Shown here piece after piece: positions 28,801-31,800 of a stretch of DNA of 64,000 nt. Under the pieces are notes generated by a model. It saw only the letters and a list, made by a program, of their open reading frames with translations, ran no database searches and was not told the DNA's origin. The position numbers were made by a program, and so were the translations under genes. How positions within the stretch are numbered: the stretch's first letter is position 1; the number at the start of each line of letters is the position of its first letter. The DNA is from Panopea generosa (Eukaryota; Mollusca; Bivalvia; Adapedonta; Hiatellidae): contig CM055908.1 of the NCBI GenBank assembly GCA_029582155.1, forward strand, positions 23,975,257-24,039,256, in the 5' to 3' direction.

Positions 28801-31800
28801 AGTGGACTGTGCCGTTGTCTCACCATGACCCACCTGACCATGGTACAGTGGACTGTGCCGTTGTCTCACCATGACCCACCTGACTATGGTACAGTGTCTA
28901 TGATGTTGTCTCACTACAATTAACCTGACAATGGTACAGTGTCTGTGATGTTGTCTCACTACAATTAACCTGACTATGGTACAGTGTCTGTGATGTTGTC
29001 TCACTACAATTAACCTGACAATGGTACAGCGGTCTGTGCCATTGTCTCACTACAACTTGTCTGACCATGGCACAGTGGTCTGTGCCGTTATCTCACCACA
29101 ACTCATCTGACCATGGTACAGTGGTCTGTGCTGTGTCTCACCTGACCATGGTACAGTGTCTGTGATGTTGTCTCACCTGACCATGGTACAGTGTCTGTGA
29201 TGTTGTCTCACCTGACCATGGTACAGTGTCTGTGATGTTGTCTCACCTGACCATGGTACAGTGTCTGTGATGTTGTTTCACCTGACCATGGTACAGTGGA
29301 CTGTGCCGTTGTCTCACCATGACCCACCTGACCATGGTACAGTGGTCTGTGCCGTTGTCTCACCATGACCCACCTGACTATGGTACAGCGGTCTGTGCCA
29401 TTGTCTCACTACAACTTGTCTGACCATGGCACAGTGGTCTGTGCCGTTATCTCACCACAACTCATCTGACCATGGTACAGTGGTCTGTGCCGTTATCTCA
29501 CCACAACTCATCTGACCATGGTACAGTGGTCTGTGCTGTGTCTCACCTGACCATGGTACAGTGTCTGTGATGTTGTCTCACCTGACCATGGTACAGTGTC
29601 TGTGATGTTGTCTCACCTGACCATGGTACAGTGTCTGTGATGTTGTCTCACCTGACCATGGTACAGTGTCTGTGATGTTGTTTCACCTGACCATGGTACA
29701 GTGGACTGTGCCGTTGTCTCACCATGACCCAGCTGACTATGGCACAGCGGTCTGTGCCATTGTCTCACTACAACTAACCTGACAATGGTACAGTGGTCTG
29801 TGCCGTTATCTCACCACAACTCATCTGACCATGGTACATTGGTCTGTGCCGTTATCTCACCACAACTCGTCTGACCATGACACAGTGGTCTGTGCCATTA
29901 TCTCACCACAACTCATCTGACCATGGTACAGTGATCTGTGCTGCTATCTCACTGCAACTCACCTGACCATGGTACAGTGAAACCTGGATGAGATAACAAG
30001 TACTTTATCATTACTATAATAGAAATATCCTGAAAATGACATGTTGTGGAACCTCTGAGCCAGATTCATTTGTTTGTTTTATTTATGATTCTCAGTTTGT
30101 CTTTGAAAACAAGCACACAGATAGTTACTGATGGTAAAAAAAATGTCCCGCGGGTGGCGACTTTTATGATTTGGAGTTTATTTATAATGGAAATTCTTCA
30201 ACACAATTTTCACCTTTATAGCTTCATTTATAATGGCCAGAGTGATTCAAGTTTTTTGTAAACCATTGGTTTATGGTACTGTACTAAATTTCAGATTGAC
30301 ATTGTAATAGGATATTGTATTTTGACATACTTTTAATCATATTGCAGATTGATATTGTACATATTGTATTGTGATAGAATGGTCAATCATAATGCCAATT
30401 GATATTGTATTGTTACAGAATGTTTAATGATATTGCAGGTTGATATTGTATTGTGACAGAATATTTAATGATATTGCAGGTTGATATTGTATTGTGACAG
30501 AATATTTAATGATGTTGCAGGTTGATATTGTATTGTGACAGAATTTTTAATGATATTGCAGGTTGATATTGTATTGTGACAGAATATTTAATGATATTGC
30601 AAATTGATATTGTATTGTGAAAGAATTTTTAATGATATTGCAGGTTGATATTGTATTGTGACAGAATATTTAATGATATTGTATTGTGACAGAATGTTTA
30701 ATGATATTGCAGGTTGATATTGTATTGTGACAGAATATTTAATGATATTGCAGGTTGATATTATATTGTGACAGAATTTTTAATAATATTGCAAGTTGAT
30801 ATTGTATTATGACAGAATGTTTAATGATATTCCAGGTTGATATTGTATTGTGACAGAATATTTAATGATATTGCAGATTGATATTGTATTGTGACAGAAT
30901 TTTTAATGATATTGCAGATTGATATTGTATTGTGACAGAATATTTAATGATATTGCATATTGCAGATTGATATCATGTGTAATGATGAGCTACTTGGCAA
31001 GGACCACATGTTAAAGTTTATCATGGCAACAAGATGGAGGGTGGATGTAAGTTTTATTTAACACTTGCACTACTTTCTTATATTTTGGATTAACTATTTT
31101 GAAGGGACACAACATTTTACATGTTCATACATAAAAATAAATCTTATGTCTAAAACATTTAAACATTGAAAATATTGATACCAAGCATTACTGTCTGTTA
31201 CATTTAAGAAATTATCGTCAGATTATAAAATGAATGCATGCATGAGTAAAAGAATTTTCAAAGACACAAATTTATAGTTCTATCAATATTTTTTTATCAT
31301 ATCGGTAAATACTGAAGAAATTATAATACATTTTACATTTTTCTGAAAATGTACGAAATAGGATGCTGCTCAACTATTTCACCAGAGTTGTGCCCCTTTA
31401 CAAAATGGAAACGAAATCAAAGATCTGCATACATACTGTAGTATCTTAATTTCATGTTTATATTATGTAGATGTACAATTTTCTGAAATAGCGTAAAAAT
31501 GAAATTGATTACAATTGTATACTACAACCAGTAAGGAAGGGTTATGTTACGGTCTTGGCCACTGAAAATTTTACATGGTTTTACTTTTGTAGCCAATTGT
31601 TTCTGTTGCTTTTTATTAACAAGGGTTGAAATGGCCTCATTACTGAATGAAGATGGGTTCTGATAAGGAAAACTTGCTTTAATGTGACGGAGCGAAAACC
31701 TGACAGGTTTCAACATTTGTAAACTCCTTGTCTTTTCTTCACGTGTTGTTGATCTTTTGTGTATGCAAAAACTCAGTTTTTCATTGGAAATCAATACCTC

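Follow-up and report, generated by a model that had tools for sequence, protein, structure and literature searches.

Tandem repeats that lie across exon-intron boundaries are known from amphioxus, where they were named 'mirages' in Adh3, and two reports describe further hosts in the globins BflGb6 and BflGb9, in PGBD5 and in troponin C (PMC3087553, PMC3902484). The mirage of BflGb6 sits on the acceptor side and that of BflGb9 on the donor side; within BflGb6 the interior copies are homogenised while the boundary copies escape, and the authors put boundary-spanning minisatellites forward as possibly general in cephalochordates (PMC3087553). PGBD5 carries two such arrays, which are described as coinciding with or overlapping its 5' and 3' splice sites (PMC3902484). 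Data on Adh3 and RT-PCR of the globins were taken by the authors to suggest regular splicing (PMC3087553, PMC3902484), and a model for the globins holds that recruitment could turn one repeat unit into an exon while the mirage repeats become intronic (PMC3087553). A related process, cited there from Rogers 1989 and Zhuo 2007, is the gain of introns by tandem duplication of segments that bear AG/GT (PMC3087553).

The 64-kb window analysed here (the whole stretch of DNA under study) holds a PCGF3-like gene with two arrays of this kind, a donor array in intron 2 and an acceptor array at the end of intron 5. As in amphioxus, minisatellite-like units span an exon-intron boundary at a 5' or a 3' site, and many copies retain their splice signals (in PCGF3, AG in 12/15 upstream acceptors and a perfect donor in 9/12 decoy donors). 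As in amphioxus PGBD5, two boundary arrays occur in one gene. Size and number set the systems apart: the globin mirage units of amphioxus measure 150-160 bp, with 3 and 6 of them in two BflGb6 haplotypes, whereas the acceptor units of PCGF3 measure 41 nt, and their boundaries ahead of the genuine acceptor number 15. The units reported for Adh3 range from 10 to 72 bp (PMC3087553, PMC3902484). The mirage hosts of these two papers are lancelets, whereas the host of the PCGF3 arrays is a bivalve; we treat the cephalochordate host as the place where mirages were found and not as part of their definition. Anatomically, then, the PCGF3 arrays are mirages, known here from the DNA of one haplotype. The first-pass annotation had called a pair of splice-site arrays in one gene unexpected, a view that does not stand as regards their kind, given the amphioxus mirages at 5' and 3' sites and the two in PGBD5. 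What is new is the bivalve host together with short units in high copy. Among the matches listed by a search of the open-licence literature, made at the level of titles and the opening lines of abstracts, none described a boundary-spanning minisatellite outside lancelets, which does not prove absence.

Two other comparisons help to place the arrays. The duplication of AG/GT segments resembles them in that tandem duplication multiplies splice signals within a gene, but it yields a new intron, whereas the PCGF3 copies sit inside an existing intron and no new intron is seen. Ordinary intronic minisatellites, such as a 46-bp array in intron 5 of the same gene, likewise consist of diverged tandem copies; unlike the two junction arrays, the ordinary arrays of the window share no word of at least 11 nt with an examined exon edge.

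Anatomy of the PCGF3 gene and its two arrays

The PCGF3-like coding region (22809..32204, + strand) comprises seven coding exons (22809-22917, 23361-23457, 24312-24367, 25017-25079, 26197-26426, 30966-31046 and 32160-32204) that join in frame to give a protein of 226 aa with RING and RAWUL domains. These domains and homology bear out the name that the gene had been given at first sight. Among the best 120 of 1165 matches, the closest named PCGF3 proteins are those of Ruditapes philippinarum (85%), Mya arenaria (83%), and Mactra and Dreissena (both 81%); the best identity in the same set is 88%, to a partial protein, and none of the 120 is identical to this PCGF3. The PCGF3 of Branchiostoma is 57-58% identical. 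Judged by this homology, the gene is a PCGF3 orthologue and its host a heterodont bivalve. Exon 2 (23361..23457) ends at the genuine donor 23457/23458 in phase 2, and exon 5 (26197..26426) ends on a codon boundary. Exon 6 (30966..31046) therefore opens in phase 0, at the genuine acceptor 30965/30966, with ATTGATATCATG, and its first 8 nt form the end of the acceptor array. This junction of exons 5 and 6 is supported by protein homology (20 aligned PCGF3 proteins). In Mercenaria, PCGF3 isoform X2 is without approximately the stretch that coding exon 4 encodes (an exon of 63 nt in the present gene), a gap that suggests in-frame skipping of this exon in a relative.

The acceptor array (30289..30973, + strand) occupies the last ~680 nt of intron 5 and enters exon 6 by 8 nt, its 41-bp units ending in CAG and restarting with the first 8 nt of that exon. 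TRF reports the 41-bp period at 30361-30681 (7.8 copies) and at 30674-30957 (6.9 copies); the outer limits of 30289 and 30973 are our own, obtained by cutting the units at the pattern [AG]TTGA[TC]AT, and the corresponding TRF limits are 30361 and 30957. Cutting gave 16 boundaries, from 30295 to 30966; 15 lie upstream, and the sixteenth is the genuine exon 6 acceptor. CAG is retained at 12 of the 15 (as TTGCAG at 10, TTTCAG at one and TTCCAG at one) and AG has been lost at the other three, so that the decoys do decay. The sequence that follows the 15 upstream boundaries is GTTGATAT (n = 9), ATTGATAT (n = 5) or ATTGACAT (n = 1).

Eleven of the 15 units are 41 nt long, the remaining four measuring 53, 50, 69 and 48 nt. 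The 53- and 50-nt units are the two outermost and are diverged; the most degenerate units are those furthest from exon 6. At 30644, a past deletion of 13 nt has fused two copies into the unit of 69 nt. The 48-nt unit is the last (30918..30965, + strand) and has 7 extra nt, its TGAC standing 30 nt and not 23 nt from the genuine splice point. Of the 12 upstream boundaries that keep AG, 9 have a TGAC 22-23 nt before the splice point; we take it to be a plausible branch site, and most units would therefore amount to a complete 3' splice module. TRF and boundary splitting together confirm the first-pass reading of a 41-bp minisatellite derived from the 3' splice junction of intron 5, and the 'about a dozen' decoy acceptors that it foresaw correspond to the 12 counted. 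The extent it gave, 30290..30965, fits as well, though the final copy reaches 8 nt into exon 6 and so ends at 30973.

The donor array (23442..23865, + strand) contains 13 full copies, the genuine one included, and one truncated copy at 23600 that is without a donor. Each unit consists of CTCTCAATTACATCAG, with which exon 2 ends (16 nt), followed by GTGAGT and ~8 nt. Twelve full decoy donors lie just downstream of the genuine exon 2 donor, and nine of them are a perfect CAGGTGAGT, identical to it across nine bases. This array, put forward at the first reading as the partner of the acceptor array, was likewise confirmed.

Exon edges as the source of the repeats

The exon pieces present in the arrays encode conserved residues. 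In the 20 aligned PCGF3 proteins D187 and I188 (GATATC of exon 6) are nearly invariant, and among the residues that the copied part of exon 2 encodes, P64 and Y67 are invariant while L65, I68 and S69 are nearly so. The arrays are thus derived from the exon edges, and not the reverse.

We also considered that an unrelated minisatellite might by chance abut exon 6 and have been misread as a splice site. Tandem repeats do abound in the window, with 53 TRF rows, and many words end in AG, but the overlap with the conserved coding edge is exact, over 8 nt at exon 6 and 16 nt at exon 2. Merging the 48 of 53 TRF rows in the 64-kb window that have a period of 10 or more gave 23 arrays, which we compared with 20 junctions in PCGF3 and in a LETM1-like gene. 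Words of at least 11 nt shared with any junction were found in only two of the 23 arrays, in each case with the array's own junction; one other array shares 10 nt, and an 11-nt word common to an array and any of the 20 junctions occurs in 0/21 of the others. In placement tests, which are post hoc (designed after the result was seen) and use partly approximate exon bounds for the LETM1-like gene and, for the intron-5 array, limits that we set ourselves, the 23 arrays were placed at random; in ~0.9% of trials at least two of them overlapped an exon edge by 5-20 nt (P about 0.009); an earlier run with nine larger, hand-picked arrays gave P about 0.0015, and P about 0.001 within the gene, with three arrays. 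Coincidence is accordingly a highly improbable account of the pair.

A search for near copies of the same 20 junctions (8 exon plus 12 intron nt, at most 4 mismatches) found arrays at these two junctions only, with 10 matches each, while three other junctions had one isolated match each and 15 had none. With 12+12 nt and at most 5 mismatches, intron 2 gave 11 matches and the intron-5 acceptor one, since its copies carry no more than 8 nt of exon 6; the shortness of this exon piece we count against the view that the junction itself seeded the array. An 8+16 nt search gave one match overall, and a comparison with Rfam at the gathering threshold gave none. The 46-bp minisatellite of intron 5 (26984..29979, + strand; TRF), with ~70 copies and a 35-bp variant from 28295, has no word of at least 10 nt in common with any of the 20 junctions and is not junction-derived. 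The LETM1-like gene (53137-62864, + strand), in which three of four reading frames scanned match Pfam PF07766, has no arrays at its 7 examined junctions.

Proposed growth, reading frame and possible use of the decoy sites

We think it likely that both arrays are tolerated, junction-seeded minisatellites of the mirage type that arose as a by-product of repeat growth. A short stretch that starts close to the branch site of intron 5, includes the acceptor and ends 8 nt inside exon 6 would have been duplicated in tandem, and the array would then have expanded on its intron side by unequal exchange or slippage. A separate event of like kind would have taken place at the 5' end of intron 2. Added copies would leave the protein unchanged for as long as the site adjoining the exon stays in use: being intronic they would escape coding selection, while the copy on the exon side is fixed by the protein. 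We infer that exon definition guides the choice of site, the genuine sites being selected because only they adjoin a full exon. The decoys would mostly be ignored, and transcripts that did use one would stop at once and probably be degraded.

The same anatomy could instead be functional, with some transcripts spliced at 'poison' decoys, meeting an immediate stop and being degraded, so that copy number tunes PCGF3 output. That the decoys match genuine sites in sequence, with 9 of 12 full decoy donors perfect, speaks for this, and so does the weakness of the genuine intron-5 acceptor, which is the poorest in pyrimidines of 9 examined (8/17 vs 10-14/17). Decoy acceptors of equal strength could therefore compete with it, and those that are just as good may see some low-level use. 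Every one of the 12 upstream acceptors that retain AG, moreover, reaches a stop within 14 codons. Read in phase 0, as left by exon 5, 10 of the 12 give V/I-D-I-V/I-L and then a stop (one of them as VDIIL), while the two outermost stop at codons 14 and 9. The earlier prediction that each decoy acceptor would read V/I-D-I-V-L and then TGA is thus nearly right, counting the one VDIIL, and fails for the two outermost, which stop later.

These stops are nevertheless to be expected. Control AGs in the introns of PCGF3 are followed by a phase-0 stop within 6 codons in 69/227 cases (30%) and within 14 codons in 140/227 (62%), and since the array copies are not independent they represent in effect one event; a stop after the decoy acceptors is therefore not special. 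On the donor side, phase 2 followed by GTGAGT at the genuine donor of exon 2 reads AGG TGA, array or not. If any donor further downstream is used, the mRNA still contains the genuine one, and so the stop in intron 2 comes from the genuine donor and not from the array. The first-pass annotation had seen meaning in the in-frame stop that the two arrays share as an outcome. With one stop supplied by the genuine donor, and the other matched by 30% of control AGs and repeated in copies that are not independent, we see none.

The decoy acceptor motifs are not conserved either. Across the 11 units that are 41 nt long (the 4 that differ in length were dropped), the columns of CAG and TGAC show no excess conservation, with 0.57 changes per column vs 0.44 overall (P 0.76), and hence the decoy acceptors show no sign of maintenance by selection. 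The nine donor columns have 0.44 vs 0.94 changes per column elsewhere in the 12 full donor copies (the truncated copy was dropped), a weak and inconclusive trend towards higher conservation that leans to the functional side and is not significant (P 0.15). Identity against distance from the exon gave rho -0.34 for the acceptors (P 0.21, 15 boundaries) and rho -0.52 for the donors (P 0.07, 13 copies, the truncated one among them), in both cases a fall in the direction that growth from the exon edge might produce, and not significant. From outside this locus, a survey in C. elegans ties an intronic minisatellite to alternative splicing (PMC4039745), but amphioxus mirages reportedly leave splicing undisturbed. 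On balance we consider the regulatory account decidedly unlikely.

The decoy acceptors might also serve recursive splicing, their CAG/GTTGAT sites acting as ratchet points of zero length within intron 5, which spans 4.5 kb. GT does come next at 8 of the 12 AG-bearing upstream boundaries, but GTTGAT agrees with the donor consensus GTRAGT in no more than 3 of its 6 positions, and every copy sits in the 700 nt before the acceptor, where splicing of this kind would bring little benefit so late in the intron. We give this scheme hardly any credence. Very unlikely, too, is that the arrays represent a step in intron or exon evolution, the decoys being on their way to become new exon or intron boundaries. 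The recruitment model for the amphioxus globins offers a precedent (PMC3087553), but all 12 AG-bearing upstream acceptors bring a stop in the phase of exon 5, and there is no insertion at the junction of exons 5 and 6 in 19 aligned homologues.

If the arrays are tolerated by-products of repeat growth, as we favour, nine decoys identical to the genuine donor persist in a gene that presumably needs correct splicing, and more than the splice motif must then define the exon. The donor array thus provides a natural test of splice-site choice. A pair of boundary arrays in a bivalve also suggests that the process is wider than the cephalochordates. A bolder proposal is that minisatellites arise preferentially at exon edges in animals at large, and not in lancelets alone, that this has put near-identical decoy donors into intron 2 and decoy acceptors into intron 5 of PCGF3, and that low-level use of these decoys sets PCGF3 output in proportion to repeat number; we hold it to be unlikely.

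The window has further features of its own. Upstream of PCGF3, TRF finds a very long 28-bp minisatellite of ~187 copies (14412-20205); each of its three forward frames contains long open stretches, which have no apparent coding meaning. Three 73-bp copies at 36111-36331 (TRF) are 98% identical and apparently very recent. On the - strand, an intronless stretch at 1081-2235 encodes a rhodopsin-type GPCR, for which only 7 homologues were found, all at most 35% identical.
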